Assembly: GCA_002862405.1 (NCBI GenBank)
Contig: PKCZ01000052.1
Location: forward strand, 1 to 34,251
Length of the DNA stretch: 34,251 nt
From: Pseudomonadota bacterium
GTDB lineage: Bacteria; Pseudomonadota; Gammaproteobacteria; Pseudomonadales; Halieaceae
Direction of reading: 5' to 3'
This document shows positions 1 to 16,769 of the stretch, one piece after another. Positions within the stretch are counted from its first letter, which is position 1, and each line of letters starts with the position of its first letter. The position numbers were made by a program, and so were the translations under genes. Below the pieces are notes generated by a model, which saw only the letters and a program-made list of their open reading frames with translations, was not told the DNA's origin and made no database searches.

Positions 1-644
1 TCTTCAATAAATCCGGCCAACAGCACATTGGGCGGTGTGCCAATAATGGTCGACATCCCGCCAATGGTGGTCGCATACGCGAGCGCCAATAACAGCGCCA
101 CCTGAAACCGTCGTTTTTCTTCATCGCTCATTCCGACAGCCTTTTCTGCCACCATTGCCGCCACTGATGCCGCAATAGGAAGCAGCATCATTGCCGTTGA
201 CGTATTCGTCATCCACATGGAAAGCAAAGCGGCAGCGACCATAAAGCCAAGAATGAGTTTTCGACCATCCGTCCCGGTACGCGACAGAACCGTGAGTGCT
301 ATTCGGCGATGGAGCGACCATTTCTCCACCGCAAGCGCTAATACGAAAGCACCCATGAATAGAAAAATGGTGGGGTGCGCATAACTTTGTGCGACCGCCT
401 TGACTGGCATCACCTGTAATAAGGGAAAGCTCACGAGTGGGATGAACGCCGTCGCCGCTACTGGAATCGCTTCTGTCGACCACCATGTGGCCATCCATAG
501 CCCAACACCTGCCACCAGCCAGGCATCTCGCGGCATCGTCTCCTGCAAACCGGCGGTCAGAAACATGAACAAGAAAAAAGAAGGCCCCAACCATAACCCT
601 ATCTGCTTCACGGTCGATCGTTCCTTCGGTAAGTCTGTCACCAT
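1..644 (-). CDS. DASS/SLC13-family sodium:anion symporter, N-terminal part (runs off the left edge)
   Basis: I translated this by hand; the ORF track misses it because it has no stop inside the window. About 214 residues are visible. They carry hallmarks of the divalent anion:Na+ symporter family: WWSTEAIPVAATAFIPL near residue 55, FMGAFVLALAVEKW near 95, the MTNTSTAMMLLPI signature near 145, and IGTPPNVLLAGF near 205. The family imports dicarboxylates, sulfate or related anions across the inner membrane with sodium; the substrate cannot be read here. The start is ATG at 644 with GGGGA about ten bases upstream. The gene lies directly behind the terminator of the TBDR gene on the same strand, so it probably depends on read-through or a weak local promoter. 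The 157-residue ORF at 121..594 is a frame shadow of it. Confidence 0.9.
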   Translation of the reverse strand, partial: MVTDLPKERSTVKQIGLWLGPSFFLFMFLTAGLQETMPRDAWLVAGVGLWMATWWSTEAIPVAATAFIPLVSFPLLQVMPVKAVAQSYAHPTIFLFMGAFVLALAVEKWSLHRRIALTVLSRTGTDGRKLILGFMVAAALLSMWMTNTSTAMMLLPIAASVAAMVAEKAVGMSDEEKRRFQVALLLALAYATTIGGMSTIIGTPPNVLLAGFIE

Positions 645-662
645 CAATGTGTCCCCAGAGAC

Positions 663-685
663 AAAAAGGCCCCCTTTCGGAGGCC
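663..685 (-). terminator. Rho-independent terminator after the TBDR gene
   Basis: On the minus strand the sequence reads GGCCTCC-GAAA-GGGGGCC-TTTTT: a seven-base stem with one mismatch, a GAAA tetraloop and a U tract. It begins about 38 bases after the stop of the TBDR at 724 and ends 19 bases before the DASS start, so it should reduce transcription from the receptor into the transporter. Confidence 0.8.
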
Positions 686-723
686 CTGGTGAGGTGGCAA
701 GTAATACCACCTCCTCAGTTTTC

Positions 724-3714
724 TCAGAAGCTCATACGCAGGTCAACGTACATGTAGCGACCGTAGTCAGAATGAGCATCAGCGAAATACCCAAAGTAAC
801 GGTCAGCCAATGGCGCTCTCTCGTCGGTCAAGTTCTTCACACCGAGCCTGAAGCGCGCGCGCGTTTCACCCATATCGAAGCGATAATCAAACGTAGCGTC
901 ATAGGTTGTCATTGATGGGATCACGTAACGAGTCCCGTCACTCAAGGTTAGCGAGCTCTGGTAGAACGACCCAACCTGATATCCAGACAGCGACGCACCA
1001 AAGTCACCTCGACGCCAACGCAGGCTCGCCCGGTGACGCTCTTCCTGATTACCATCGCGTCCCACAAGATCAGCGAAGCCATCGATTGGAATGTTCGCTG
1101 GAATTTGACCACTCGCTTGACTCGCAACGAGTAGCGCGGCATCACCTGACGCTTCCTGCTCAAACTTGTCTAGGTAGGAGCCGTTGTATCGGAAGCTGAA
1201 GGTACCCAGGTCAGTGTCAATGTCGTAATAAACACCGATGTCATAGCCCTCAAGGGTACGCTTATCGAGGTTTGCGTAAGCGTCATCTACCCGAATGGTA
1301 TCTCCCCCAGGGCAGATACCTGCTTCGGTGAAGGCGGCAATTTGATCATCGTCGGGCGCCTGGCGCACAACCGCGGGGTTAAAGGTCATCGAGCAATTGG
1401 TAGTACCGGCCTGCAAGCGGTAGTACAAGTCAAGGATCATGTGGTTCTCTTCGCCGAAGAGACCAATCGTGTCATCTTTCTCGATACTCCACCAGTCAGC
1501 GGTCAGCGTAAGTCCATCAAGCGGCTCAAAAACAAAACCGACCGATGTGTTCTCGCCGGTCTCCGACCTGAGCAGCTCACTGCCTTGTGCGGAACGCTGA
1601 ATCGAGTTTCTGCAATCAAGGTTATAAGCCTCAGCCGTGACTTGGTTCGCGTACTCACAGGTCCAGTCCGTCCGCGTATTACTTCGTGCTACCAAGCCCT
1701 CGTTTACCGTAACGAGGTTTGGCGCGCGGAATGTTTCAGACCACGAACCGCGAACCAGGAGCGATTCAAACGGACGGTAGCCAAATGCAGCCTTACCGAC
1801 AGAGATGTTGCCATCGCTGATGTCCGAGTAGTTCTCATTTCGGACCGCGAGCTGAACATCGAGATTTTCGAGAAGCGGTATCTGCAACTCGGCAAACATG
1901 GAAGTGACATTACGAGACCCTGAGCTATCGCCTGTGGGGCTCGAATTCGCGACATCACTTACATAGGGGTAAGTGTCACCCTGGTAGTCGGTAAAGACTA
2001 TAGTGCCGTCGAGCCGTGGATCACGATCATCTCGGTACTCCTCTTTACGCCACTCGAACCCAATTAGGCCAGCAATGGACCTCCCACCCAACTCGAGTAA
2101 ATCATTGTTCGAGACTTTGAAGTCGAAAGTTGTGAGTTCGGTTTCTGATTTACGATAAACATCAACCAAGATGCGCTCGATATTCGATCCCTCATAAGTT
2201 GGATCGAGTGGATTGAAGGCATCCATCGACGAGTCACTTAGGGCGTCGGTAGCAAGCGTATTCGAAACACGGTTGCGTGTGATGTCGTCTTTTGTGGCCT
2301 TGGCATATGAGAACGCAGTTTCCCAATCCCAATCATCTTGTGAGCCACGGAGACCTTGCAGAACTCGCAACATATCACCGTCGTTGTCAACGATTCGTGG
2401 AGCCTGCCCAAAACGGTAGTTGTCAATGATGAGGTCGAGACCCTCCGCAGGAACACCGGCCATAGCATCATCTAACCCGGGGCCAGAAAGGCGTCCCGGA
2501 CCGCTACCTAGCGGGTTATAGGGGTTGTCAGCGCCCATGATCAGCTTAACCGAGCTGAATGTCGCTGATGCATGACGTATAAGGTTAGTCTCAGACTCGT
2601 AGAAGGACAGTTCAGTAAAGCTCTCTGTACCGTTCGCTAATTCATGGGTGATATTTGCAAACAGGCTCATGCGATCAAGCTCCGAGGCAAGATCTCGCCC
2701 AAACCCATTGTTGCCGTTAAGGTCATAGCGATAAGTACCCTGTCCATCTACGGCGCCGCAGGTGGTGGCATTGATCGTGTACTGACAGCGAGAATCCCCA
2801 ATCGGGTAAGTTTCAAATTCACCCGCGGTATCTGTAATAACCCCGTTTAAGCTGGTTGGCTCACGGGTGGTACGAACATCCATCTGAGGATACAAACCGT
2901 TAGCTGAATTGTTTCGGAATGAGGTGCTACCAGCCCAAAGCGAGTCTTCTGGGATGCGACTCCTAAAATCAGAATTTGCCCAGCGCGGATCGTCGTTAGA
3001 ACTCACACGATCCCGATGATAGTAGTTAAAGAACACACCCACATTGGTGCGCCCATCATTGAAGTCCTGCCCCCATTCTGCTGTAACGCTTTGACGGGTA
3101 CTCGGCGTGTTATCGAATTCTGAGTGACGGAATCGGATGTTAAATCCCTCAAAGTCATCTTTGAGCACCGTGTTCACCACACCAGCCACCGCGTCAGCGC
3201 CGTAAATGGCCGAAGCACCGTCACGAAGTACTTCGACACGATCGATGCCCCAAACCGGTAGGTGGTTAGAGTTAGCGGTGTTAACAGGAATAAAGCTTCC
3301 ACCTACCTCCTCAGTCTGATACGTCGCCGAGTTCACGAGTCGACGACCATTCAGTAGTACCAGGGTGTTACCGGTACCAAGGTTACGAAGGTTGAACGCA
3401 CCTAAGTCACCCCGGCCAGAGTTCACTCCGCCAGAAATATTCTCCGCCTCGTTGAAAAAATTTTGTCCGTTTTCCGGGATCAGTGCGAGCAGCTCGTCAC
3501 CAGAGTCAATGCCCATGGCCTCGATGGCCTCGGCGTCAACGACGCTGACTGCGAGTGCTTCTGATATTGACGCTCCTTTAATTTGCGAGCCGACGACAAC
3601 GACTTCCTCGAGTGGCCCCTCATTTTGTGCAAATGAAGCGGTAGATAGAACGGCAATTGCTACCCCCAACGGGGCGCGCGTGAATCGCAATGAGCAATCA
3701 AAGGATGTGATCAT
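724..3714 (-). CDS. TonB-dependent outer-membrane receptor (large, peptide-locus type)
   Basis: The 996-residue product has a signal peptide (MITSFDCSLRFTRAPLGVAIAVLSTASFA), a TonB-box-like LEEVVVVGSQ near residue 35, a plug domain to about 190 (LVLLNGRRLV, GIDRVEVLRDGASAIYGADAVAGVVN), a 22-strand-type barrel, and a terminal aromatic residue (RMSF) for BAM-dependent assembly. TBDRs import substrates into the periplasm using TonB-ExbBD energy. The ATG start has AGGAG seven bases upstream. The nearby secreted M14 carboxypeptidase and amidohydrolase remnant suggest a peptide-type ligand; this is inference. Several paired cysteines (for example CQYTINATTC) fit disulfide-closed extracellular loops. 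It differs in type from the two sulfotransferase-linked TBDRs in this window and has no comparable tyrosine cluster. Confidence 0.95.
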   Translation of the reverse strand: MITSFDCSLRFTRAPLGVAIAVLSTASFAQNEGPLEEVVVVGSQIKGASISEALAVSVVDAEAIEAMGIDSGDELLALIPENGQNFFNEAENISGGVNSGRGDLGAFNLRNLGTGNTLVLLNGRRLVNSATYQTEEVGGSFIPVNTANSNHLPVWGIDRVEVLRDGASAIYGADAVAGVVNTVLKDDFEGFNIRFRHSEFDNTPSTRQSVTAEWGQDFNDGRTNVGVFFNYYHRDRVSSNDDPRWANSDFRSRIPEDSLWAGSTSFRNNSANGLYPQMDVRTTREPTSLNGVITDTAGEFETYPIGDSRCQYTINATTCGAVDGQGTYRYDLNGNNGFGRDLASELDRMSLFANITHELANGTESFTELSFYESETNLIRHASATFSSVKLIMGADNPYNPLGSGPGRLSGPGLDDAMAGVPAEGLDLIIDNYRFGQAPRIVDNDGDMLRVLQGLRGSQDDWDWETAFSYAKATKDDITRNRVSNTLATDALSDSSMDAFNPLDPTYEGSNIERILVDVYRKSETELTTFDFKVSNNDLLELGGRSIAGLIGFEWRKEEYRDDRDPRLDGTIVFTDYQGDTYPYVSDVANSSPTGDSSGSRNVTSMFAELQIPLLENLDVQLAVRNENYSDISDGNISVGKAAFGYRPFESLLVRGSWSETFRAPNLVTVNEGLVARSNTRTDWTCEYANQVTAEAYNLDCRNSIQRSAQGSELLRSETGENTSVGFVFEPLDGLTLTADWWSIEKDDTIGLFGEENHMILDLYYRLQAGTTNCSMTFNPAVVRQAPDDDQIAAFTEAGICPGGDTIRVDDAYANLDKRTLEGYDIGVYYDIDTDLGTFSFRYNGSYLDKFEQEASGDAALLVASQASGQIPANIPIDGFADLVGRDGNQEERHRASLRWRRGDFGASLSGYQVGSFYQSSLTLSDGTRYVIPSMTTYDATFDYRFDMGETRARFRLGVKNLTDERAPLADRYFGYFADAHSDYGRYMYVDLRMSF

Positions 3715-3811
3715 GGATTTCTCCTGAGTGATTTCGTGACTTGTTATTAGTGCCGCTTGGCGGCTATTTTTGTTGTTAATGTTTTTACGTCTTTATCGTT
3801 ATTGTCTGAAA

Positions 3812-3840
3812 AATGTATTACGAACAGACTTCTGTGACAA
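3812..3840 (-). promoter_or_regulatory. Candidate sigma-70 promoter of the TBDR gene
   Basis: On the minus strand, TTGTCA (-35) and TACATT (-10) are separated by exactly 17 bases and lie about 100 bases before the ATG at 3714. The resulting leader is AT-rich and contains a small hairpin (GCCGC-CAA-GCGGC, 3752-3764). Five of six and four of six positions match consensus. No transcription evidence is available. Confidence 0.5.
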
Positions 3841-3863
3841 GTTTTCAGGAATTAGAGGCTGCC

Positions 3864-4221
3864 CTAATCGCAACTGGGTAAAAACCCTTCCTTGATGGTG
3901 AATCTAACGTTTACTATCAGGTGATCAACGCCACTCGACATACGGTCCCACTTGCCGAGGCTCGCGCTCTCTTACCAACGCTTTGGATCCAAAACCAAAA
4001 CATCGGCGATCATCCGCATCGCCAAATAACCACGATCACATGGGCCTAGAATATCGGCCAGTAATCCGCTGCTCGATAGAAAAGATTGAACGAGCGATAG
4101 AGTGTCGCCATCTCGCACATAGGCGCTGTATTTTCGAGAGGAGCTATTGAACTCCGACGTCGCCCTCGTAAGGCGGTGCGCCCATGCCATCTACGACCAA
4201 TCCGCCTTTAAACATGAGATC
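3864..4221 (-). pseudogene. Remnant of an N-acyl-D-amino-acid deacylase-like amidohydrolase
   Basis: The end of the upstream M14 reading frame (DLMFKGGLVVDGMGAPPYEGDVGV) looks like the first residues of a D-aminoacylase/amidohydrolase. After its stop, another minus frame reads LADILGPCDRGYLAMRMIADVLVLDP, then a TAA stop, then ESASLGKWDRMSSGVDHLIVN up to a TAG at 3864. These match the usual C-terminal pattern of that family (DRG..G..ADvvvlDP...G...vivNG). Roughly 380 central residues with the metal site are missing, a frame shift separates the two parts, and a stop interrupts the tail, so it cannot be functional. The 72-residue ORF 3972..4190 is part of this relic, not a gene. Family assignment rests on motif memory. 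Confidence 0.65.
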
Positions 4222-5427
4222 GAGTGGCCGATTATCGATTGCCGTGCCTGCTGACGGCTGCTCGAAATACGCAGACATAAAAGACTCGGCTGCCGCCCGT
4301 CCGTAGGCCTTTATTACGCCACGATCTGTCTCATCACCAATTTCCAAGGTCGTTGAGGAAATACCATACTTTGTGAAGAAATAGTGCTTTGCCGCGTTCA
4401 CCTGAGGGCTTTCTGAGACCTGTCGTTGGATATCAAAGTCATCAAACTGAGAACGCATCAGTGCTTCAAATTGTGCTAACCAATCCCCCAAAAGACCTGG
4501 CATGGTCGATGCAGACTGATCAGGCTGGGTGTAGAAAACCTCGTAATGTGTGGAGTGAAAATCGATCGCCTTGATAAGTTCGGTATCATGCGTTTCGAGC
4601 CATTTAGAGACGTCGCTGTCAATAATGCGATTTTCGGGCTGCGAAAATCGACCCCACTCGCGATTCAGATCCTTCCCGCCCACATTATGGCGCCACAACC
4701 CCTTGTCGACCCCATCGGGGTTTATAAGGGGGTAGAGTAGTATTCCAACCTGGTCGTGAAAGCGCGTCGCAAGCGCATCATCCTCGAATAATCGCTCGAC
4801 AAAACTAATTAGCGCAAGCGCCCCAGTAGTTTCAGGTGGGTGCTGACGCCCCAATAACAATAGCGTGTGCTTTTTTGCGGGAGAAGTCACTCTCCAAAGT
4901 TGTCGGCCGTCTACTGACGGTCCTGCCGATGACACGGTCACACCATGCTGCGCCTTTAAGGATTCGAGCCACGTTGCGTAATGTGATGATGTCAGCAGGG
5001 GCTGTGCTGCAATGACAACAGACTTGTCTTGCGGAACCTTGAGCGAGAACCCCGCCCGAGACTTATCGTTATTAAGGTCAAGCTTTGTCGCTGGGTACGT
5101 TTGCCAATTCACGCCGTCGATACTAAAGTCAGGCGTGTAGCGATGCTTGTAGTTGCCGTAGTCCAGCACCATTGCGATATTTGTCGTCACGTCGGCCAGC
5201 AACCGGAAGGCGTACCAGGGGCTGGAGTTGATTGGTTCGTCCTCGGGAGCAACCGAAATTGTTAACCGCCCATCTGAGGCAAACTCGCAGCCGTTGATAT
5301 TGCCGCCTTGAAAATCAGTCAACACCTTGATGCCCGCTTGTTCGCAGACTGGCTTTCCCGCCTCAGCCCGCACGGGGGCTGGGTAGCATACGATGCTAAA
5401 AATGAGGCTAATTAAAACCGCTCTCAT
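4144..5427 (-). CDS. Secreted M14-family zinc carboxypeptidase
   Basis: The 427-residue product starts with a signal peptide (MRAVLISLIFSIVCYPAPVRA) and an N-terminal beta-rich domain to about residue 150. A zinc carboxypeptidase domain follows: HPPE (H196, E199) for the metal, NPDGV..G.WRHN..GKDLNREW (236-258) for substrate binding, DFHSTH (H291 or H294) as the third ligand, and TLEIGDE with catalytic E362. M14 enzymes remove C-terminal residues from peptides; here this would be in the periplasm or outside. The last 25 residues do not look like peptidase and resemble the first part of an amidohydrolase, so the true protein may once have ended earlier or been a fusion. It sits between an NhaC-type carrier and the TBDR, all on one strand, consistent with peptide use. 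Confidence 0.88.
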   Translation of the reverse strand: MRAVLISLIFSIVCYPAPVRAEAGKPVCEQAGIKVLTDFQGGNINGCEFASDGRLTISVAPEDEPINSSPWYAFRLLADVTTNIAMVLDYGNYKHRYTPDFSIDGVNWQTYPATKLDLNNDKSRAGFSLKVPQDKSVVIAAQPLLTSSHYATWLESLKAQHGVTVSSAGPSVDGRQLWRVTSPAKKHTLLLLGRQHPPETTGALALISFVERLFEDDALATRFHDQVGILLYPLINPDGVDKGLWRHNVGGKDLNREWGRFSQPENRIIDSDVSKWLETHDTELIKAIDFHSTHYEVFYTQPDQSASTMPGLLGDWLAQFEALMRSQFDDFDIQRQVSESPQVNAAKHYFFTKYGISSTTLEIGDETDRGVIKAYGRAAAESFMSAYFEQPSAGTAIDNRPLDLMFKGGLVVDGMGAPPYEGDVGVQ

Positions 5428-5660
5428 ACTGTGACTCTTTAGTTACTCCGCAAGCCTCCGAATCGGGTCTGCTGAATTTGTTTAATGGCCTGGCGTCGAG
5501 CCAACCTCCGCCGCAATGGTCGCGGCCCCCCGTCAGACTAGTGACACAGAATACGCAAAACACCGTTGTGCACAATACGGCTCACTAGCAAGACTCGTCA
5601 TAGGAAGCTCATATTGATGCCATAATAGGACGCCAGATTACCCTCACACTGAGGCAATAC

Positions 5661-7013
5661 CTATATTGCAGCGAATAGGAATCCGACCGCCGCAATGCCT
5701 GCCGCAATGAGCGCGTAAGGAAGCTGCGTCACCGCATGTTGATAGGTATTACACCCCGCGCCCTGAGCTGATAGCACCGTAGAGTCTGAGTAGAAGCAAG
5801 CATGGCTACCGAAACCACTGGCCGATAACAGAGCACCGATAACGAGCGGGATGCTGACATCGTAGGCCTGCGCCAGCGGGAAGGCGACGGGCATAGCGAT
5901 CGCGATGACACCCCAGTTTGATCCAGTGGCGAAAGACACCGCTGACATGGTGACAAACACAATGGCAGGCAGCATGGTGGCAGTCATATAGGGCTTCACC
6001 GCTTGAATCACGAAATCTGTAAGCCCGATCCGATCGTTTGCTTCCACGAAAACAAAAAGCGCAAGCAACATTGCCAACACCGGCACCATAATTTTGATAC
6101 CGTTAGTGCAAGTATCGAGAAGCTCCGAAAGTGGCATGATTCTTAAGGACGCGTAGTAGGCCACGGTCACAATGATTCCAGCGATTACACCGCGTAGCAA
6201 TTCTACACTGGGAGACAACGAAAATACGGGAAAGATCGTGAAGTAGAGCAGCGCTGCAATGGGAATAAAGAACGTCCCCGCTCCCCCTGACCCAAATTCC
6301 ATTTCATTTGAGGGATCTTCCGAAATACCCAGCTCGCCGGTCTCCTCCGCGAGCGCTTCTGCTTTAGCCATAGCACCAAGACGAGGAATGACGCCAAGTA
6401 TGACTAGCGGCACCAAAAGCACAGCGATAATTGGGTAAAACATGTAGGGAAGCGATTCGATAAAAAGATTCAAACCTTGGCCATCGGCGGCGACCGCATT
6501 TTTTTCCAGAAGGCCTGCAAAGTAGGCGCCCCAACTCGATATAGGTATCAAGAGACACAACGGTGCCGCTGTTGAATCAACAACGTAGGCAAGCATTGCG
6601 CGAGACGCCTTAAAACGGTCGGTGACCATTTTCATGGTTGCGCCAACGGTCAGAGAGTTAAGGTAGTCATCGAGGAAAATAACCAGCCCTAGCACCCAGG
6701 TCGTCAGCAGACTTTGTCGCTTATTTTGAAGTCGAGCGAGTAATAACCGCCCAAAGGCCATCGAGCCACCGCTTCGAACAAGAAGCGCAATGAAAACGCC
6801 ATAGAGGGCACAAACCAAAATAATCCAAGCTATGTCCTCATCTCGGAGCACAGACAGGGAGACTTCAGCAAGGGTCTCTACAAAACCCACGCCGTCTATA
6901 ATGAGAAAGGCAAAAATTGCTCCAGCGATCACCGACTCGAGTGTCCGCCGTGTTTTGATAGCTAACGCTAATACCAGCGCTGTTGGCAGCAGACTGACAA
7001 TTCCGTATTCCAT
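5661..7013 (-). CDS. NhaC-family Na+/H+ antiporter-like inner-membrane protein
   Basis: The 450-residue polytopic membrane protein has about ten to twelve hydrophobic segments. It carries the NhaC-type core: FLDDYLNSLTVGATMKMVTDRF, STAAPLCLLIPISSWGAYFAGLL, and the C-terminal half FATGSNWGVIAIAMPVAFPLA plus GSHACFYSDSTVLSAQGAGCN. The family exchanges sodium for protons, and some members move organic solutes, so the substrate is uncertain. The ATG start at 7013 has GGAGG unusually close (two bases between), but MEYGIVSLLPTAL is a normal NhaC-type beginning. A 233-base gap (5428-5660) without recognisable genes separates it from the M14 gene, so the two may be transcribed separately. It is divergent from gpsA across a 141-base intergenic region that contains a perfect palindrome. 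Confidence 0.9.
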   Translation of the reverse strand: MEYGIVSLLPTALVLALAIKTRRTLESVIAGAIFAFLIIDGVGFVETLAEVSLSVLRDEDIAWIILVCALYGVFIALLVRSGGSMAFGRLLLARLQNKRQSLLTTWVLGLVIFLDDYLNSLTVGATMKMVTDRFKASRAMLAYVVDSTAAPLCLLIPISSWGAYFAGLLEKNAVAADGQGLNLFIESLPYMFYPIIAVLLVPLVILGVIPRLGAMAKAEALAEETGELGISEDPSNEMEFGSGGAGTFFIPIAALLYFTIFPVFSLSPSVELLRGVIAGIIVTVAYYASLRIMPLSELLDTCTNGIKIMVPVLAMLLALFVFVEANDRIGLTDFVIQAVKPYMTATMLPAIVFVTMSAVSFATGSNWGVIAIAMPVAFPLAQAYDVSIPLVIGALLSASGFGSHACFYSDSTVLSAQGAGCNTYQHAVTQLPYALIAAGIAAVGFLFAAI

Positions 7014-7068
7014 CGCCTCCAGAGCCTCTCAGAACACCATCGCTTTGGCTTGAGTCTACAGGGCAATA

Positions 7069-7084
7069 AGGTGAAGATTCACCT
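7069..7084. promoter_or_regulatory. 16-bp palindrome in the divergent nhaC-like/gpsA intergenic region
   Basis: AGGTGAA-GA-TTCACCT has perfect seven-base arms around a two-base centre. It lies 56 bases from the nhaC-like start and about 70 bases from the likely gpsA start. Size and position suggest a dimeric repressor operator rather than a terminator, since no T tract follows. The cognate regulator is unknown. Confidence 0.45.
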
Positions 7085-7154
7085 CAACTTGATGTTTTGA
7101 TCTTGAACCGCCATCCTCGCGCGTCGTTTTATGCGCGCTCAGGGGTAAATTGCT

Positions 7155-8171
7155 CTGAATTCACCAAAAAACAGTGATACACGTCTCGCCGTCATCGGCG
7201 GAGGCTCATGGGGCACGACACTGGCATCACTGGTCTGTCGCAATGCTCACGTTACGCTGTGGGCGCGCGATTCGGATGTTGTGGATGAGATTAATGGCTC
7301 GAATACCCACAGCCGCTACCTCGAAGGTCTCAATCTCAATCCCCTATTATCCGCAACCACGAGTCTCGAAGCGGCCGTGACCAACGCCCATGCTGTTTTT
7401 ATGGCCATTCCATCGCACAACTTTCGTAGTGTATTTGAGCAGGTGGCGCCTTTGGTTCCCAGCGGCGCCCCTATCATCAGTCTGACCAAGGGACTCGAAG
7501 CCACGACGCAAAAGCGGATGACCGAGGTGATTCACGAATACTGCCCAAATCATCCAGTGGGTGTGCTGACCGGGCCGAATCTGGCAAGGGAAATTCTCGA
7601 AGGAAAAGCCGCAGCAAGCGTGCTTGCGCTCGATGACGCCTCGGCTGACTGGTTGCAACCCATTCTCAATGTCGGCTTGTTTCGGGTCTATCGAAACGAC
7701 GATGTGGTTGGCTGCGAGCTCGGTGGTGTCCTGAAAAATGTCATTGCTCTCGCCGTTGGTCTTGGAGACGGCCTCGGGGCTGGCGACAACACGCGGGCCG
7801 CGCTGATTACGCGAGGTCTCGCCGAAGTCACGCGCTTGGGCATTGCCTTAGGTGGTCGCGCAGAGACTTTCGCTGGGCTGGCAGGAATGGGCGATATGAT
7901 CGCCACCTGTACCAGCCCTCAGAGCCGAAATCGCCACGTAGGGCTTCGACTAGCGGAAGGAAAGTCAGTACAAGAGATCACCGACGCCATGAACATGGTG
8001 GCAGAGGGTGTTAAAAGCGCGCCCACCGTCGTCTCACTAGCAAACCGTCACGATACTGAGATGCCAATTTGCGGTGAGATGCAACGTATTCTCGAAGGCA
8101 AGGCCGATGCAACCCGGGTTTATCGGGGACTTATTCGCGTTGTCGCGGGTGCTGAATCGGAGCCCGGTTGA
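7155..8171 (+). CDS. gpsA: Glycerol-3-phosphate dehydrogenase [NAD(P)+], apparent non-canonical start
   Basis: GpsA reduces dihydroxyacetone phosphate to sn-glycerol 3-phosphate for phospholipid synthesis in the cytoplasm. Visible are the Rossmann motif LAVIGGGSWGTTLA (11-24), ISLTKGLE with K112, LTGPNLAREI, the catalytic-lysine segment GGVLKNVIALAVGLGDGLG (K194), and GDNTRAALITRG. The ORF track starts at a GTG (7281), which would delete the Rossmann glycine loop, so that start is wrong. Reading upstream in frame, the stop is TAA at 7146, and between it and the glycine loop there is no ATG, GTG or TTG; only ATT (7149) and CTG (7155) occur. CTG at 7155, nine bases after AGGGG, gives 338 residues, the usual family length, and is my choice. 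A sequencing error is the alternative. Confidence 0.85.
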   Translation: MNSPKNSDTRLAVIGGGSWGTTLASLVCRNAHVTLWARDSDVVDEINGSNTHSRYLEGLNLNPLLSATTSLEAAVTNAHAVFMAIPSHNFRSVFEQVAPLVPSGAPIISLTKGLEATTQKRMTEVIHEYCPNHPVGVLTGPNLAREILEGKAAASVLALDDASADWLQPILNVGLFRVYRNDDVVGCELGGVLKNVIALAVGLGDGLGAGDNTRAALITRGLAEVTRLGIALGGRAETFAGLAGMGDMIATCTSPQSRNRHVGLRLAEGKSVQEITDAMNMVAEGVKSAPTVVSLANRHDTEMPICGEMQRILEGKADATRVYRGLIRVVAGAESEPG

Positions 8172-8226
8172 CGCCTTGCAGATTGGGCCACATCTTGAGA
8201 ACTCGATAGCACTGGAGCCCCCGATA

Positions 8227-9045
8227 ATGCGCCGGATCCAATTTGTTGTATGCACCCTACTGCTCTGCCTCGTGGTGGGATGCAGCACAAGCCCTACAGG
8301 TAGAAGCCAATTTCTGATCGTTTCTCCAGAGTCGGCCATACAGCAGTCGCGAGGCGCCTATCGGCAAGCAGTGGAGGCACTCCGTGAAGAGAATGAGATA
8401 TCCCAAGACCGATTACTGGAGTCGCGCGTCCGCCGCGTTACAGGGCGAGTGGTAACCGCCGCCGTTGCGAACTTCCCAAAGTCTTTCAGCTGGGACTGGA
8501 GTGTGGTGATTGTCGACGATGCAGACACCGTGAATGCCTGGTGTATGGCCGGCGGCAAAATGGCTGTGTACACGGGCCTGTTTGAACAGCTTGAGCTCAC
8601 TGATGCTGAATTCGCTCAGATTATGGGCCACGAGATTTCTCATGCGCTCGCTGACCATACGGCCGAGCGGATGTCGCGCGCCATGGCGATACAACTGGGC
8701 CTGGTAGCCGTCAGTGCAGCGACTGATGGCAGCCGCGCTGCAGGGCAAAATGCAGAGCTCTTAGCCCAGGTCGCCCTCGAATTACCCAACAGTCGGGTGG
8801 CAGAACGTGAGGCCGACACGCTTGGCATGCGGCTGGCAACCCTCGCAGGATATGACCCGGAGGCCGCTGTGACGTTGTGGCAAAAGATGTCAGGCCTGGC
8901 AGGCGATCGACCAACTGAATTTTTGAGCACGCATCCTGCACCTAACGATAGACAAGCGCGACTCAATCAAATGATCCCGGCCATGCGCGACTTGAATCCG
9001 ACGGGCAAGAAACTACCCGCCGCGGCCATTACTATCGTCGACTAG
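8227..9045 (+). CDS. M48-family metalloprotease lipoprotein
   Basis: The 272-residue product starts at ATG 8227 (GGAG nine bases upstream), giving a lipoprotein signal MRRIQFVVCTLLLCLVVGC with the lipobox VVGC at residue 19. The ORF track start at 8074 lies inside gpsA and is rejected. The zinc protease motif is GHEISHALADH (HEXXH at 135-139), with the second-helix motif AEREADTLG (193-200) and the typical end LSTHPAPNDRQARL. This matches short periplasmic M48 proteases such as the LoiP/YcaL/BepA group, which cut misassembled outer-membrane proteins; the residue after the lipid cysteine is Ser, favouring the outer membrane. It follows gpsA by 55 bases. Its stop overlaps the stop of the convergent BCCT gene, with no space for a terminator. 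Confidence 0.9.
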   Translation: MRRIQFVVCTLLLCLVVGCSTSPTGRSQFLIVSPESAIQQSRGAYRQAVEALREENEISQDRLLESRVRRVTGRVVTAAVANFPKSFSWDWSVVIVDDADTVNAWCMAGGKMAVYTGLFEQLELTDAEFAQIMGHEISHALADHTAERMSRAMAIQLGLVAVSAATDGSRAAGQNAELLAQVALELPNSRVAEREADTLGMRLATLAGYDPEAAVTLWQKMSGLAGDRPTEFLSTHPAPNDRQARLNQMIPAMRDLNPTGKKLPAAAITIVD

Positions 9046-11006
9046 GTCCTACGATGCTGCTCGAATTGAGCAAGGACATCAGCGATGACCTGGGTCTCAG
9101 TCAGACCCCACAAGCAGTACCCCGCTGAACCCGAGGTTAAGTGCACCTCAGTCACCGAGGTTGATCCCTCGACCGGAAGTGCCACTTCATCGCCGCTGGT
9201 ATCAGGAGAAGCATCTACACCCTGAGGTGCCAGCTTCACCGCATAGACAAAACCCGATTCATCATCAGCGCCAGCGGTCAGCGCAATCGAGCCATCAGCT
9301 CCGCTGTAATTGGTTACCGTTGCAGCAACACCACTGTTGTTAAGTTCAGCCGCAAACGCCGACAATGCAGGGAGTACCGTTTCCCGCTGAAACGCAACAA
9401 CCGCATTTTCCGAGGGTGCCTTGAGCAGCGCTCCCAACCGAGACTGCCAATCAACGTCAGCATCTGTATCAAAGCTCGCTGAGGCTTTTCCAAAACTCGA
9501 TTGCATATCGGACTTAAGCGATCGCTGAAGCCCCCAAAGGGCCCCTAACAGGATCAACGAGAACGGAAGCGCACTTGCAATCGTCGCGGTTTGCAGTGCG
9601 CCTAAGCCGCCAGTAATCAGGAGCGTAGCCGAGATTGCAGCAATGATCCCTGTCCAAAGAACGCGCTGAAAGACAGGCGTTTCATCAACGCCACCCGATG
9701 CCATCATGTTAAGCACCAAAGCGCCACTGTCGGCCGAGGTGACAAAAAAGATCACGATCATCACCAAACTCAAAAGCGATAGATAAAACGTACCCGGCAA
9801 ATAATCGAGGAACAGGAACAGCCCAAGTGGCTGATCATTAGCAACGGCCTCGCCAAATGCCACCTCCCCCGCATGAATTAAATCGATAGCGCTACCACCA
9901 AAAACGTTCATCCAAAGCACCACAAATAAAGTCGGTGCCACCATCACACCAATCAAAAACTCTCGTATCGTGCGACCACGCGAAATGCGTGCGATGAAGA
10001 TGCCGACAAAAGGCGCCCAACTTATCCACCAGCCCCAGTAGAAGATCGTCCAACCACCCAGCCATTCAGTGTCTTCGTAAGTGAAAAGATTGGTCGACGT
10101 GGTTATCAGATTGGCCACGTAGTAACCGAAGTTCTCCAGCGTGCCGCCCAAGATCAAGGCCGTAGGCCCGATCAGTAGCACGAAGCATAGGAGCGCTATC
10201 GCAAGAAAGGAGTTGATCTCTGAAAGACGTTTAATACCCGAGTCTAGACCCAGCGCTACGGATACCGCAGCCATCGCCATGATCGCGACGGTGATCGCGA
10301 GTTTGAGACCGCCGGACTCCGGCACACCAAACAGGTAATTAAGGCCCGTGCTCAGCTGCTCGACGCCTAGTCCCAGGCTAGTTGAAATCCCGAAGGTGGT
10401 GCATACGATGGCGAAGACATCGATTGCCGCACCCCACGGGCCGTAGATGCGGTCACCCAAAATAGGATAGAACGCGGAGCGCAGTGTCAGTGGCAAACCT
10501 CGCCGAAACGAGAAGTAAGCCAGCACCAAGGCCATGAGTGCATAGACTGACCAGGCATTGAATCCCCAGTGGAGCATGGTCAGGTTGACCGCCTGATTCT
10601 CTCCACCCAATGCAGTGCCCTCACCAACGGGAGGTCTAAGGTAGTGAACCACGGGCTCCGCCACACCATAGAACATGAGCCCGATCCCAACCCCAGCAGC
10701 AAACAGCATCGATAGCCACGAAAAAAGACTGTATTCAGGTGACGAATTGTCGGGGCCCAGTCGAATGTTGCCGACGCGAGAAAAGGCCAGCACAACCGAT
10801 GCGACCAACAGTATGGCCATCACAATCCCGTAGTACCAACTTGCATTCTCCACGATCGCTGCCTGTAGCGTGCCGAACGCCCCGCCGCTCGTATCGGGAA
10901 ACAAGAGGACAATGCCGACTGTACTCAGCAAAAAGGCGATAGACGGGATGAAAACTGCGCGGTCAACGACAAAACCGCGATCGGACAAATTCAACATGAA
11001 ACGCAT
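9042..11006 (-). CDS. BCCT-family betaine/choline/carnitine-type transporter
   Basis: This is a sodium- or proton-coupled importer of quaternary ammonium osmolytes. About twelve transmembrane segments are visible, with the family signature WTIFYWGWWISWAPFVGIFIARISRGR (about 319-343), including the tryptophan box. LFAAGVGIGLMFYGVAEP (about 101-118) is the Gly-rich TM1 segment. After the last helix there is a cytoplasmic tail of roughly 120 residues (SFGKASASFDTDADVDWQSRL...), longer than the core family, possibly an osmosensory or regulatory domain. The ORF track begins at a TTG (11066); I prefer ATG 11006 (MRFMLNLSDRG, 654 residues), or ATG 10997 just after it, because the extra 20 residues are not typical. 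Neither ATG has a clear Shine-Dalgarno sequence. The substrate could be glycine betaine, choline or DMSP. Confidence 0.9.
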   Translation of the reverse strand: MRFMLNLSDRGFVVDRAVFIPSIAFLLSTVGIVLLFPDTSGGAFGTLQAAIVENASWYYGIVMAILLVASVVLAFSRVGNIRLGPDNSSPEYSLFSWLSMLFAAGVGIGLMFYGVAEPVVHYLRPPVGEGTALGGENQAVNLTMLHWGFNAWSVYALMALVLAYFSFRRGLPLTLRSAFYPILGDRIYGPWGAAIDVFAIVCTTFGISTSLGLGVEQLSTGLNYLFGVPESGGLKLAITVAIMAMAAVSVALGLDSGIKRLSEINSFLAIALLCFVLLIGPTALILGGTLENFGYYVANLITTSTNLFTYEDTEWLGGWTIFYWGWWISWAPFVGIFIARISRGRTIREFLIGVMVAPTLFVVLWMNVFGGSAIDLIHAGEVAFGEAVANDQPLGLFLFLDYLPGTFYLSLLSLVMIVIFFVTSADSGALVLNMMASGGVDETPVFQRVLWTGIIAAISATLLITGGLGALQTATIASALPFSLILLGALWGLQRSLKSDMQSSFGKASASFDTDADVDWQSRLGALLKAPSENAVVAFQRETVLPALSAFAAELNNSGVAATVTNYSGADGSIALTAGADDESGFVYAVKLAPQGVDASPDTSGDEVALPVEGSTSVTEVHLTSGSAGYCLWGLTETQVIADVLAQFEQHRRT

Positions 11007-11136
11007 ACTTATCAAAATGTCGATGAAGTGTAACAGTAACTGCCTCGCAAACACTTGCTCGAGCAATTAAAAGAGCAAAAAGTACTTTGCGTATTAATTA
11101 TTTACATTTTTTATTAATTTTGTCCTTCAAAACAAT

Positions 11137-11169
11137 GGGTTATACCATCTTCGGCGCGGGCTATACCAA
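11137..11169 (+). promoter_or_regulatory. Two direct repeats GGGYTATACCA spaced 21 bp before the TBDR
   Basis: GGGTTATACCAT (11137) and GGGCTATACCAA (11158) are direct repeats with a 21-base period, two helical turns. They lie 53-85 bases before the TBDR start and downstream of a strongly AT-rich stretch that could act as an UP element. A TAGAAT box (about 11185) could be a -10 element. The arrangement suggests a tandem activator or repressor site. Confidence 0.4.
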
Positions 11170-11221
11170 TTAAATACTTTGAGCTAGAATCTTCTGACCA
11201 CTCTGATAACGGAAGTGTTTT

Positions 11222-14077
11222 ATGTTTCTCACCAATAAGTTTGGCAAGCGGCCCTTATCGCTTGCCGTAGCCGCTGCTATTGCGCCGGCTTTAGCGTCCA
11301 CAGCACTCGCGCAAAACCTTCAGCTTGAGGAAGTTGTCGTTACTGCGACCAAGCGTGCTGAAAACCTTCAAGATGTTCCGATCTCAGTCAATGCCTTGTC
11401 TGGCGATGCCATGCGGTCGCAGAACATTATGACCTTCGATGACTACGTCGAGTTCCTGCCTAACGTCGTGAGCGCTGGTATTGGTCCAGGTCAGAAAGAA
11501 ATTTATATCCGCGGTTCAGCCTCTGAGCAGTCGTCTATTACTGTTGCGCCAGCGCAGGGCTCTGCTCCGGGCGTAGCACTGTACCTCGACGAGATGCCCG
11601 TATCGTTTGGCGCTCGTAACCTAGATGTGTACGCAGCTGACCTTGAGCGTATCGAGGTGCTCTCTGGCCCTCAGGGCACGCTCTTTGGCGCAAGCTCGCA
11701 GTCGGGCAACATGCGTCTCATCACGAACAAGCCTAACCAGGACGAGTTTGAAGCCAGCATTGACTTTGGTATGAGCTCAACGTCGGGCGGCGCGGGCAGT
11801 AATAATGTCGAGGCAATGATCAACATCCCATTGAGCGATCGCGCTGCAGTTCGCTTCGTTGGCTACAGCGATAACCAAGGTGGTTGGATTGACAACGTAT
11901 CGGGCAGCTTTACGCCAAGTGGTGACGTTATAGATCGTAACAACTCGGCCGGTTACGGGCCTTTCTTCAGTGGCTTCCCGCTGACGACAATTCAATCCGC
12001 CTCAAACGCAGATCTTGCCGAGGATGACTGGAACGAAGCCAAGTACAACGGTTTCCGCGTAGCGGCGAGCTACGATTTTAACGACGAGTGGAGTGGCTTG
12101 TTGACTCACATGTCGCAGGAAATCGATGTTGAAGGTTCATTCTTGGTCGACCCAAGCTTGGGTGACGAGAAGTCTATGAAGTTTGCGCCTGAGCACAACC
12201 TCGATGAGTTCGATATTACCACCTGGACCCTCGAAGGCCGACTGGCCAATCTCGACATGGTTTACACCGGTGGTTACATCGATCGTGAAGTCGATGCCAT
12301 CATCGATTACACCCACTACAACAACGGCGGTGGCTACATCACCTACTACCTCTGTAGCGGAAATATCTACTCAGGTGACAAGGCCAATGCAACTAACACA
12401 TGTTTTGACCCCACCAAGCAGTATGCTGATGCTTCAACCAACGAGCGAACTACGCACGAGATCCGTTTCAGCAGTGACCCAGACAACCGTCTGCGCTGGA
12501 TGGCAGGTGTGTATATGAGCGATGTCGACACTACGCACGTTGGTGAATTTCAATATATGTCGACCAATGACGCATTCAGCGAGCACATTGTTAACTATTT
12601 TGGGTCAGGCGCTCCGTTCGAAGTTGGAAACACAACGATTCCTAATACGGCAGGTACAAATACCGTAGGCCCACGAAGCCCACTGACAACCTTCTATAAT
12701 GATTACACGCGAACTGAGGAAGAGACCGCGTTCTTTGGTGAAGTTGCATTGGATCTCACCGACGATCTAACAATTTCATTGAGTGCTCGACGTTATGATC
12801 TCAAGTCGCAGCTACAAGGCGCTTCAAACTTCTCGTTTGGCTGTCGCTATGGCGCGCCATTCACCGATCGTGACACACCTGCAGGCGCGGGCTTCGGTAA
12901 TGCTGAAGTCACACCTGATGGCCGCTGTAACAGTAACGCCTTCAGTAACGACGTAACGTCACGTCTTCTAACATTGGGGGCCTACGCTGCATCGGGTGAT
13001 GACAACATCATCTTGAACGCAACCAGCCCTAATGGTGCGCGCGACATGTTCCGAGGTGGTGGTAGCAACGCAGCCACATTGGCCGCGATCCAGAACGGCA
13101 ACCTGGATATCGGTGATATCTCTGCTGACGGATCAACGGAAGAAGAGGACACAATCGTTCGACTGTCTCTGAACTACAACCTGTCCAATGATGTGATGGT
13201 TTACGGTATCTACTCAGAGGGCTATCGCCCAGCGACACAGAACCGTAACGCAGGCCAGTTGGCAGCAAACCAGAGCGGCGTATACGAGGGTTATGTGGTA
13301 CCAGCAGTAGCGGTCACCGATACACTCGAGAACATCGAGTTTGGTATGAAGGGTGAGTTCCTCGATCGTACATTGCGATTGAATGCAAGCTTTTACATGA
13401 CCGAGATCACTGACCTACAAGTATCTCGTTTTGACCCATCAAACGTAGCGTTCCTCGTCTTCATGGAGAACGTTGGTGATGCAGAGTCAAACGGCATCGA
13501 TGTGGATTTCCAATGGGCTGCCGGCAGCAACCTGTTGATTTCAGGTGCTGCCAGCTTCCTCGATACGGAAATCACTCGTCTGAACCCCCAGCTGCAGGGT
13601 GTTGCGGTTCCTGTTGGATCAGAGTTACCTCTGGCACCTCGCTTCTCGGGTAACGTTCGCGTCCGCTACGACTACGAAGTGCCCAGCATGGCCGCCAATG
13701 GCTACGTAACAGCTGCACTAGTACATCGTGGTGAATCGGTAGCTGGCATCGTAGGTAGTGCGGCCTTTATGGATGACACAGGTGTTCTCGCCTATGGCGC
13801 TTCATCTGGTCTGGGCCTGCAGAACGAGGGTGGTACGTTTGGTACGGTTAATGACCGTACTGGAAACCTTCCAGCAAACACCCGTTTTGTTAACGAGTCT
13901 GCAACCATGATCAACCTGAGCGCTGGTCTTGAGAAGGACAACTGGCTCGCTGAGGTCTACGTTCGTAACCTCACAAGTGAAGAAGGTGCGATCGTGCAAA
14001 CGGCAGGTAAATTTACGCCTGAAGCTACGATCAACCGACCCAGAACGCTTGGTTTGAGGCTCTCTTACCGCTTCTGA
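11222..14077 (+). CDS. TonB-dependent receptor, sulfotransferase-linked copy 1
   Basis: The 951-residue product has a signal peptide (PLSLAVAAAIAPALASTALAQ) and TonB-box-like QLEEVVVTATKR (34-45). A plug follows (ENLQDVPISVNALSG, IYIRGSASEQ, LERIEVLSGPQGTLFGASSQSGNMRLIT), then a long beta barrel ending in LRLSYRF. GGAAG precedes the ATG. A segment at 363-383 (IDYTHYNNGGGYITYYLC..) holds six tyrosines and leads into a cysteine pair (C378, C394) that should lie in an extracellular loop; a second pair occurs in FGCRYGAPF...GRCNSN. The plug type is that of large proteobacterial TBDRs for plant or algal compounds, sterol-like or other complex organics; the ligand is not readable. A strong terminator follows, then a TPR-sulfotransferase on the same strand, the same partner as for the TBDR at 24967. 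Confidence 0.95.
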   Translation: MFLTNKFGKRPLSLAVAAAIAPALASTALAQNLQLEEVVVTATKRAENLQDVPISVNALSGDAMRSQNIMTFDDYVEFLPNVVSAGIGPGQKEIYIRGSASEQSSITVAPAQGSAPGVALYLDEMPVSFGARNLDVYAADLERIEVLSGPQGTLFGASSQSGNMRLITNKPNQDEFEASIDFGMSSTSGGAGSNNVEAMINIPLSDRAAVRFVGYSDNQGGWIDNVSGSFTPSGDVIDRNNSAGYGPFFSGFPLTTIQSASNADLAEDDWNEAKYNGFRVAASYDFNDEWSGLLTHMSQEIDVEGSFLVDPSLGDEKSMKFAPEHNLDEFDITTWTLEGRLANLDMVYTGGYIDREVDAIIDYTHYNNGGGYITYYLCSGNIYSGDKANATNTCFDPTKQYADASTNERTTHEIRFSSDPDNRLRWMAGVYMSDVDTTHVGEFQYMSTNDAFSEHIVNYFGSGAPFEVGNTTIPNTAGTNTVGPRSPLTTFYNDYTRTEEETAFFGEVALDLTDDLTISLSARRYDLKSQLQGASNFSFGCRYGAPFTDRDTPAGAGFGNAEVTPDGRCNSNAFSNDVTSRLLTLGAYAASGDDNIILNATSPNGARDMFRGGGSNAATLAAIQNGNLDIGDISADGSTEEEDTIVRLSLNYNLSNDVMVYGIYSEGYRPATQNRNAGQLAANQSGVYEGYVVPAVAVTDTLENIEFGMKGEFLDRTLRLNASFYMTEITDLQVSRFDPSNVAFLVFMENVGDAESNGIDVDFQWAAGSNLLISGAASFLDTEITRLNPQLQGVAVPVGSELPLAPRFSGNVRVRYDYEVPSMAANGYVTAALVHRGESVAGIVGSAAFMDDTGVLAYGASSGLGLQNEGGTFGTVNDRTGNLPANTRFVNESATMINLSAGLEKDNWLAEVYVRNLTSEEGAIVQTAGKFTPEATINRPRTLGLRLSYRF

Positions 14078-14157: not shown

Positions 14158-16155
14158 GTGATTGCAGAGTCGATTCAACAAGCCCGTGTAGCCATGGGCA
14201 AGCGAGCCTTTAGCGAGTCTCGAGCCTTACTCAGCGAAGCGCTCACCGCTGAGCCAGACAACTTTGAAGCACGCTACACCCTTGCGGTATTAGAACGCGC
14301 AGAGGGTAATCACGATAAAGCGCTAGAACTCCTGACTGCTCTGACAGCAGAAAAGTCCGACTTTGGCAGGGGCTTTCAAGAGATGGGCTTGTGCGAGCTT
14401 GCTTTAAAGCGAGAGCAAAAAGCAGTATCTGCGTTCGAGGAGGCTGTGGATCGAGATGGATCTCTGATTGATAGCTGGAAGTTCATCACTGCCTACTACC
14501 GACGAACGGGCGATCCTCGAGCTGAACAGGCAGGTAAACAGGTCGAATTTCTTGCCGCGCTCCCCGGTGAACTGCGGACCGTAATTAGCTATCTTGCAGC
14601 TAATCGACTCGGCGATGCGGAGCGTCTTTGCCGCTACTTCATGCAGCAGAACAAAACACATGTTGAAGGCATGCGTTTGATGGCTGAGATCGCTACTCGA
14701 ACAGGTGTATTCGACGACGCGGAATTCCTCCTCGAAACGGTCATGGAGCTTGAGCCCGAGCACTACGACGCTGAAATCCAGCTGACTCATGTTCTGCTCA
14801 GACGCCAGCGGTTTCATAAGGCGCACTTGCGTGCGAAGTCGATGTACCAACGTTTAGATAATCCTCCTCAACAAGTGCAGGCGCTCTACGCGTCGGTCTG
14901 TTTTGGTGTCGGTGAGAACGAAGAGGCTATTCGGGTGTATCAAGAGATGATCCGCACGATGCCAAAAGACCCTGCACTTCGGGTTTCGCTCGCACACATC
15001 TACAACGCGACCGGCGAATCCCATCGCGCTATCGACCTTTTCAAGCAGGCTTATGACTTGAACCCAAGTTTTGGCGATGCCTTTTGGAGCTTGGCAAACA
15101 CCAAGTCCTATCGCTTCACTGAGGATGAAGTCAACGCGATGACTGAAAGTTTGAGTGGCGATAACACTCCCGAGCTCGACCGTATTCAAATGCACTTTGC
15201 TCTCGGGAAGGCGCATGAAGACAGTAAAAATTTTATGGCCGCGTTTGAGAACTATCAACAAGGAAACGCACTAAAGCTTGCGGTATCGAATCACAGCCGT
15301 GAGCAGCTCGACATCCGCGTCTCTACTCAAATAGATGTCTGCAAAGCCTCATTGTTTGATCGCCTAGGCGATGTAGGCCATGCCGCACCGGACCCTATCT
15401 TTATTGTCGGATTGCCTCGTGCGGGCTCAACCCTGCTAGAGCAAATACTCGCATCGCATTCACAAGTGGATGGCACGATGGAGTTGCACGACATTCTCGA
15501 TCTGGCGAAGCGATTGCGCGGCCGAGACAAGGCGGGCGACCCTAGCCCTCGCTATCCGCGTATTTTGGGCGAGCTTCCCACAGAGCGGTTTGAACAATTC
15601 GGCAAGCAATTTATCGAGGACACGCGCGCTTACCGAGGCGCTGCACCGCGTTTTATCGACAAGATGCCAAATAACTTTTTCCACGTGGGGCTCATCAAAC
15701 TCATCCTTCCCAATGCGAAAGTAATCGATGCACGACGACACCCCATGGCGTGTTGCTTTAGCGGTTACAAACAGTTGTTTGGTGAGGGTCAGGAGTTCTC
15801 CTACGGCTTGGAGGAGATAGGTAACTACTACAAGCAGTACGTTGATCTCATGAATCATTGGAATGAGGTATTACCCGGCTTTGTTTTGCGCGTTCAACAT
15901 GAGGATGTCATCGACGACCTCGAGACTCAGGTACGGCGCATTCTGGACTTCTGTGGGCTCGAATTTGAGGAGTCCTGCGTGGAGTTTCACAAGACGAAAC
16001 GCACCGTAAGAACACCCAGTGCGGAGCAAGTTCGCCAGCCCATCAATACCTCAGGCGTCGACCAATGGCGTAACTTTGAGGAATACCTTGACCCACTAAA
16101 ACGTGCTCTCGGCCCCGAGCTATTGAATACCTATGGGATAGATCCTCCTCGATGA
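14158..16155 (+). CDS. TPR-repeat sulfotransferase (PAPS-dependent), copy 1
   Basis: The 665-residue cytoplasmic protein (no signal peptide) has about 400 residues of tetratricopeptide repeats (for example DNFEARYTLAVLERAEGNHDKALELLTAL; DPALRVSLAHIYNATGESHRAIDLF), then a Sulfotransfer_3/tyrosylprotein-sulfotransferase-like domain. The 5'-phosphosulfate loop is FIVGLPRAGSTLLEQIL (415-431), the likely catalytic acid is in GTMELHD (E442), and the 3'-phosphate region is VIDARRHPMACCFSGYKQLF (522-541). The C-terminal TPSAEQVRQPINTSGVDQWRNFEEYL is typical of the family. It moves sulfate from PAPS to a hydroxyl; TPR arms usually hold a protein or peptide. The start is GTG at 14158 with only a weak purine-rich leader; the next ATG (M13) is possible. 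It follows TBDR copy 1 past a terminator and overlaps the next gene by ATGA. Confidence 0.92.
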   Translation: MIAESIQQARVAMGKRAFSESRALLSEALTAEPDNFEARYTLAVLERAEGNHDKALELLTALTAEKSDFGRGFQEMGLCELALKREQKAVSAFEEAVDRDGSLIDSWKFITAYYRRTGDPRAEQAGKQVEFLAALPGELRTVISYLAANRLGDAERLCRYFMQQNKTHVEGMRLMAEIATRTGVFDDAEFLLETVMELEPEHYDAEIQLTHVLLRRQRFHKAHLRAKSMYQRLDNPPQQVQALYASVCFGVGENEEAIRVYQEMIRTMPKDPALRVSLAHIYNATGESHRAIDLFKQAYDLNPSFGDAFWSLANTKSYRFTEDEVNAMTESLSGDNTPELDRIQMHFALGKAHEDSKNFMAAFENYQQGNALKLAVSNHSREQLDIRVSTQIDVCKASLFDRLGDVGHAAPDPIFIVGLPRAGSTLLEQILASHSQVDGTMELHDILDLAKRLRGRDKAGDPSPRYPRILGELPTERFEQFGKQFIEDTRAYRGAAPRFIDKMPNNFFHVGLIKLILPNAKVIDARRHPMACCFSGYKQLFGEGQEFSYGLEEIGNYYKQYVDLMNHWNEVLPGFVLRVQHEDVIDDLETQVRRILDFCGLEFEESCVEFHKTKRTVRTPSAEQVRQPINTSGVDQWRNFEEYLDPLKRALGPELLNTYGIDPPR

Positions 16156-16769
16156 TCTTCTCCTCCAGCAAGAAATTTATCTTTTTTGCAGTCCCAAAAA
16201 CGGGAACCCATGCGGTCCGAGAGGTGTTACGCCCTCTGCTAACTGACGCAGACTGGGAGCAACAAATGTTAACCGGGCGCATGCTTTCACCCGTCCCAGA
16301 GCTCGCTACGATCGGACACGGTCATATTTCCTATCAACAACTCACACGCGCGGTTGGGCAGGAGGAGATATCAAACCACTTCAGCTTTGCCATTGTGCGC
16401 CACCCCATTGAGCGCTTTATGTCAGTGTGTGCCTTCCTTGCTCGAACGGATCCGAGCTACGCCGATGACCCTGTGGAGTGGGCCAAGCGTGCCTTTGGAT
16501 TTGAACGCTTTCGTCAGCGCGTTTTGGTGCGCCCACAATCCGAACTTCTTATCGACGATAGCGGTGAGCTCGCACCTTCTTTTGTCGGTCGCTACGAGCA
16601 GCTAGAGAGAGATTTGAACGTGATATGTGAGGAACTCGGAGTACAACTTCCGACGTTAAAACGCAGAAATGTGACACCAAACGAGAAGCCAGATATTTAT
16701 CGCGATACTGATTTCATGAAGGATTTAGAGGCGTTTTATAGCGCCGATTTTAGGTTGCTCGGCTACTAG
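16152..16769 (+). CDS. Small sulfotransferase, Sulfotransfer_2-like
   Basis: The 205-residue product begins in an ATGA overlap with the TPR-sulfotransferase stop, so the two are translationally coupled. It has a 5'-phosphosulfate binding loop KFIFFAVPKTGTHAVREVL (8-26) and the 3'-phosphate motif FAIVRHPIERFMSVCAF (near 79-95), as in Golgi-type carbohydrate sulfotransferases (HNK-1/chondroitin type), which often add sulfate to sugars. There are no TPRs and no signal peptide, so it should be cytoplasmic. Its acceptor is unknown and it need not share the acceptor of its larger neighbour. Its last 20 bases overlap the end of the convergent oxygenase gene. Confidence 0.82.
   Translation: MIFSSSKKFIFFAVPKTGTHAVREVLRPLLTDADWEQQMLTGRMLSPVPELATIGHGHISYQQLTRAVGQEEISNHFSFAIVRHPIERFMSVCAFLARTDPSYADDPVEWAKRAFGFERFRQRVLVRPQSELLIDDSGELAPSFVGRYEQLERDLNVICEELGVQLPTLKRRNVTPNEKPDIYRDTDFMKDLEAFYSADFRLLGY

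Follow-up and report, generated by a model that had tools for sequence, protein, structure and literature searches.

An M14 carboxypeptidase gene carrying the scar of a deleted amidohydrolase domain in a marine gammaproteobacterium

The two enzymes that meet at the locus described here have counterparts of known structure. Bacterial M14 carboxypeptidases of the cytosolic type (4b6z, 3k2k, 4a37, 3l2n) carry an HxxE...H zinc site, an Asn-Arg (NR) pair, and a catalytic Glu. The amidohydrolase 9g5m, the D-aminoacylase and N-acyl-D-amino-acid deacylases (1m7j, 3gip), and the GlcNAc1A deacetylase PpOngB (9kb1) provide the second set, and in PpOngB the metal-binding and catalytic positions are occupied by His68/His70, Cys97, His222, His252, and Asp368 (PMC12017989). 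Gene fusion followed by domain loss is a general pattern, in which coupled neighbours become one gene and a deletion afterwards brings back a protein with a single domain. Our locus does not depart from it in principle, and each stage of the pattern can be seen within one family. It lies in a stretch of 34,251 nucleotides (hereafter, the window) from an uncultured marine gammaproteobacterium whose near relatives are labelled Halieaceae, and whose genome is one draft assembly, 94% complete, in 209 contigs. We searched the M14 protein against 118 relatives, looked for fused frames in 140 genomes from the family and 369 from the class, and placed the deletion by anchored pairwise alignment, distances between conserved anchors, and BLASTN break points. 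With high confidence, we interpret the locus as the remains of a bifunctional M14-amidohydrolase enzyme that lost its second half by one deletion and kept the peptidase.

The M14 frame is on the minus strand of the window (4144-5427) and encodes 427 residues, ending in FKGGLVVDGMGAPPYEGDVGVQ before the stop codon (in fuller context, ...MFKGGLVVDGMGAPPYEGDVGVQ). Pfam, an alignment of 18 homologues, AlphaFold, and Foldseek assign to residues 1-390 (4258-5427, minus strand) a signal-peptide-like N-terminus and a complete M14 zinc carboxypeptidase domain of the bacterial CCP-like kind. The match to PF00246 (Peptidase_M14; 2e-12, 47.8 bits) exceeds the curated cut-off of 21.6, and an NCBIfam search gave the protein no name. 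The top Foldseek matches are the bacterial carboxypeptidases 4b6z, 3k2k, and 4a37, with CCP5 next. The sequence match to the M14 structures covers residues 25-269 and the fold match the whole core, including the zinc site, the NR pair, and the catalytic Glu. Unlike those proteins, to which it is only 18-21% identical, the window protein has a signal-peptide-like N-terminus, and in its genus the enzyme is followed by a second one at the C-terminus. All of the active-site residues are kept (H196, E199, N255, R256, H291, and E362), and the HxxE + His zinc site, the Asn-Arg substrate pair, and the catalytic Glu are invariant or nearly so across the 18 homologues. We take the zinc, substrate, and catalytic roles of these residues to be those of carboxypeptidase A. 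The AlphaFold model has a mean pLDDT of 82.9, mostly above 90 in the core, and falls to 50-60 after about residue 390, versus 89-90 for the same segment in an intact fusion.

The M14 domain ends at about residue 390, which is where stand-alone M14 homologues stop, without a tail of the kind found in the window. Six congeners (G017, G045, G001, G008, G027, and G054) have instead intact M14-amidohydrolase frames of 890-901 residues, in which the tail (residues 391-426) precedes the junction of the window within an uninterrupted chain. This chain runs on as FKGGLVVDGTGAPPYEGDVGVRDGRLL... (in G017) and enters a complete amidohydrolase. Their M14 parts are 82-84% (G017, G045, G001) or 65-67% (G008, G027, G054) identical to that of the window. 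Residues 400-427 of the window protein (4147-4230, minus strand) are thus a vestigial amidohydrolase N-terminus, in frame behind the peptidase, as a sequence-only reading of the window had supposed. AlphaFold shows two confident domains in the intact fusion with a hinge around residues 395-399, the relative placement of the domains being left unsettled by the model (pTM 0.60); as modelled, the first domain is not touched by the truncation. Two of the fusions, in G008 (L036 6524-9181) and G027 (L037 5439-8114), are nearly identical across the M14 part. The C-terminal half of the G027 fusion resembles that of G045, and the genes downstream also differ from those of G008, which looks like recombination inside the fusion gene.

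In G017, Pfam places PF00246 and PF07969 (Amidohydro_3) on a single chain, the latter at 63.5 bits against a cut-off of 29.7 and over positions 2-468 of the 472 of the profile, i.e., full-length. The nearest solved structures to this second domain are the amidohydrolase 9g5m, N-acyl-D-glutamate deacylase 3gip, D-aminoacylase 1m7j, and PpOngB, which it matches over its whole length. The fused enzymes share with these deacylases the HxH pair, the two later His ligands, and the catalytic Asp (SSDGTDGHPR in the fusions), and differ from them in being joined to an M14 domain. They also differ at the position of PpOngB Cys97, where the metal-ligand Cys is replaced by an aligned Asp (GNDG for GNCG) in all six fusions and in most copies encoded in operons. 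This change makes the domain a relative of D-aminoacylase rather than a typical one, and its score against NCBIfam NF006560 (175.7 bits) is below the curated cut-off of 340. Where the motif is clear, the D-aminoacylase-like domains linked to M14 at L035, L031, L039, L055, L057, L067, L068, and L069 carry the same Asp. A literature search on the fused M14-amidohydrolase architecture found nothing relevant, and the fusion is apparently undescribed.

Relative to its three nearest fused relatives (G017, G045, and G001), a single internal block of 1,091 bp is missing from the window. This figure is the difference in anchor distance against G017, and the two motifs flanking the lost block are separated by 1,101 bp in all three relatives. 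BLASTN aligns the window to each of them before and after one gap, with the break at 4145-4154, and together with the anchor distances and alignments it places the junction at about 4148-4153 (minus strand), within GTTC/AGTTC. The junction resembles both ancestral break points and is exact only on the right side against G045 (AGTTC, which is AATTC in G017 and G001). This suggests a few bases of microhomology, too short for proof. Since 1,091 is not a multiple of three, the peptidase frame immediately meets a TAG stop (4144-4146, minus strand) where the frame of the relatives stays open for about 470 more codons; this is the altered C-terminus that had been proposed from the window. The lost block extends from just after the first beta-strands of the amidohydrolase to just past the catalytic Asp. 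It contains the HxH pair, the Asp/Cys position, both later His, and the catalytic Asp, so the remnant retains none of the metal-binding or catalytic residues, and the amidohydrolase activity must be gone. The proposed loss of the centre of a D-aminoacylase-like domain thus corresponds to one deletion. We also considered a relocation of the domain within the genome and rejected it: the missing block, or another orthologue of the amidohydrolase, was not found elsewhere in the 94%-complete genome, where the best other match reached no more than 39% identity over 105 residues. The same genome holds many other Amidohydro_3 proteins.

The 3' end of the amidohydrolase is still recognisable. Just downstream of the M14 stop, a different frame reads ...SSRKYSAYVRDGDTLSL...DRGYLAMRMIADVLVLDPKRW, a stop, and then ESASLGKWDRMSSGVDHLIVN, like the end of an amidohydrolase. 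By tblastn, this scrap (3838-4151, minus strand, out of frame with the peptidase) is 65-67% identical to residues 789-899 of the fusions. The G017 protein matches the M14 frame and tail over residues 1-428 (83%) and the scrap over residues 789-884 (65%, E=5e-33, with one TAA inside), and another translated match has 67% identity over 92 residues (E=6e-32). The likeness, as judged by these translated searches, is far beyond chance, even if the short downstream ORF alone has no Pfam match. The scrap is also collinear with the 3' end of the fusion, and on to the start of the TonB receptor, in G017 and G001. Both halves of the scar that had been recognised at 3864-4221 are therefore real, and only its limit needs correction, the scrap reaching to about 3838, slightly beyond 3864. 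The alignment to the relatives shows two further lesions: a nonsense codon TAA after DP (3972-3974, minus strand; CAA, Gln, in the relatives) and a 1-nt deletion near 3889 (3885-3893, minus strand) that shifts the frame a second time. The omega of the scrap is 0.32-0.36 in the window and 0.08-0.19 in the sisters, a contrast that is indicative, given the small counts (about six nonsynonymous and five to six synonymous private changes) and a branch that covers time both before and after the deletion. Disabling lesions and, within these small counts, relaxed constraint relative to the intact orthologues qualify the scrap as a pseudogene segment.

Complete loci have the order NhaC antiporter, beta-propeller lipoprotein (PF09826), fusion, TonB receptor, DASS symporter (TIGR00785), GDSL-like hydrolase, and a last gene that we take to be Coq4-like. 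The M14, amidohydrolase, TonB, DASS, and GDSL part of this cassette is present in G068, from another genus of the family. The window retains the TonB-dependent receptor (724-3714, minus strand; PF00593/PF07715 and synteny) and, cut by the window edge, the DASS (SLC13-type) sodium-coupled anion symporter (3-710, minus strand; 95% identical to the G001 protein). Comparison with relatives reveals a second deletion scar upstream of the peptidase (5428-5660, minus strand), where all of the gene of the 680-residue lipoprotein but its last bases has been lost from between the flanks. This gene is present in 20 of the 57 genomes of the genus. In G044 (L034 1760-2101), the fusion is cut after about 80 codons (79 residues kept) and joined to the Coq4-like gene, and the TonB, DASS, and GDSL genes are absent, a larger loss independent of that of the window, with the caution that this genome is 58% complete. 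G006, G019, and G035 have the same flanks without the fusion and the TonB receptor. These differing losses indicate, from comparison of the loci, that the cassette has been repeatedly trimmed or swapped in the genus. Nucleotide identity to G017 is 90% in the upstream genes (window 5650-12209) and 82-83% in the M14/TonB cassette (3221-5438), which fits an exchange of the cassette between lineages. Elsewhere in the window, at 7140-7290, gpsA has no ATG, GTG, or TTG ahead of the nucleotide-binding motif, as in near relatives, and its start is probably a rare codon (ATT or CTG). A suspected frameshift near 7281 would have pointed to low sequence quality; it was ruled out, the frame being intact with a non-ATG start. 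Three sulfotransferase-family proteins, two of them with TPR repeats, are encoded near TonB receptors (14158-16769 and 23268-24845).

The sequence-only reading had allowed for two kinds of ancestor, bifunctional protein and two-gene operon, and both existed in turn. The two domains are encoded by separate neighbouring genes in other genera of the family (G068, G120, G127, and G129) and in another family (G426 and G521), with an ATGA stop/start overlap in G068, G129, G426, and G521. These outgroup operons show, at the level of gene structure, that a separate chain is a workable form of the peptidase. Across the 140 family and 369 class genomes, fused frames of the pair were found only in the genus of the window. 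In the M14 tree, the window groups with its three nearest fused forms in a clade of four (100/99). A wider clade of eight (99/99) encloses these four, and every other complete member of it is fused; the sequence of the eighth, G047, runs off its contig. The window nests within the fused clade, hence its truncation derives from a fusion and is no primitive state. The order of events, as read from this tree, is a coupled two-gene operon, a fusion within the genus, and the loss of the second domain in the species of the window. The fused form lacks the amidohydrolase's own signal-like N-terminus seen in the operon form (compare L039:5571-7181), so one predicted export signal now serves both domains. 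An operon as the immediate ancestor, with the peptidase tail born when the deletion joined two genes, could appeal to the adjacent genes of the outgroups, but it is contradicted by the uninterrupted tail of the six congeners among which the window nests, and by the stand-alone M14 proteins ending near residue 390. We regard it as refuted at this depth, with a negligible residual probability, and it holds for the deeper ancestor.

Nor is the gap likely to be spurious. The genome is fragmented and represented by a single draft assembly without reads, so an assembly or binning artefact could in principle hide an intact fusion. A misjoin would not, however, create the nonsense codon and the separate 1-nt deletion of the scrap. 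The replacement rate of the scrap is raised, the rest of the genome holds no copy of the missing block, and the neighbouring gpsA aligns without gaps to G017 across the 371 bases checked. An artefact is therefore very improbable. A more serious alternative, still an unlikely one, is that the whole gene is dying, peptidase included. The erosion of the locus is in its favour, with the loss of the adjoining lipoprotein gene, of nearly everything after residue 79 in G044, and of the fusion and TonB gene between the same flanks in three other genomes. Against it, the peptidase has 427 codons without a stop or frameshift and a full active site, and the private changes of its M14 part in the window lineage have an omega of about 0.10, not above that of sisters with an intact fusion (0.07-0.21). 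Part of this branch predates the deletion, which leaves room for a very recent relaxation. Eight private replacements fall at positions otherwise invariant among near relatives (e.g., P264R and Q254G), against nine in G045 and seven in G001, and they may or may not have slightly weakened the enzyme. The peptidase half is a complete domain that is probably still made and still active.

By our interpretation, the ancestral enzyme was a probably exported M14 zinc carboxypeptidase with a C-terminal D-aminoacylase-like, metal-dependent amidohydrolase. A single 1,091-bp deletion removed the amidohydrolase core and brought the peptidase frame at once to a stop codon, leaving the 3' scrap as an untranslated pseudogene segment that gathers lesions. 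We infer the joint function of the pair mainly from its conservation, first in coupled genes and later in a fusion; a pairing of peptidase and deacylase conserved across genera suggests that both act on one substrate. The TonB receptor may bring in an acylated peptide-like substrate, from which the carboxypeptidase would trim the C-terminal residue and the amidohydrolase would take off the N-acyl group, both presumably outside the cytoplasm, and the DASS symporter could take up the anionic product. In the species of the window, the deacylation step would be lost. A possible, still tentative extension is that the sisters have an undescribed single-chain scavenger, made of two zinc-type enzymes (the M14 peptidase and the Cys-to-Asp D-aminoacylase-like deacylase) in a TonB/DASS cassette for an acylated acidic peptide-like substrate, and that the species of the window shed the deacylase to draw something different from the substrate while keeping the peptidase. 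The locus provides a well-resolved natural series of coupled operon, fusion, truncation, and full loss of an enzyme pair in one bacterial family. It points to an undescribed pairing of carboxypeptidase and deacylase, and its truncated form is a test of the usefulness of the peptidase alone. The decay of the domain is ordinary in itself; of greater interest, as a by-product, is the fused enzyme with its Asp in place of the metal-site Cys.
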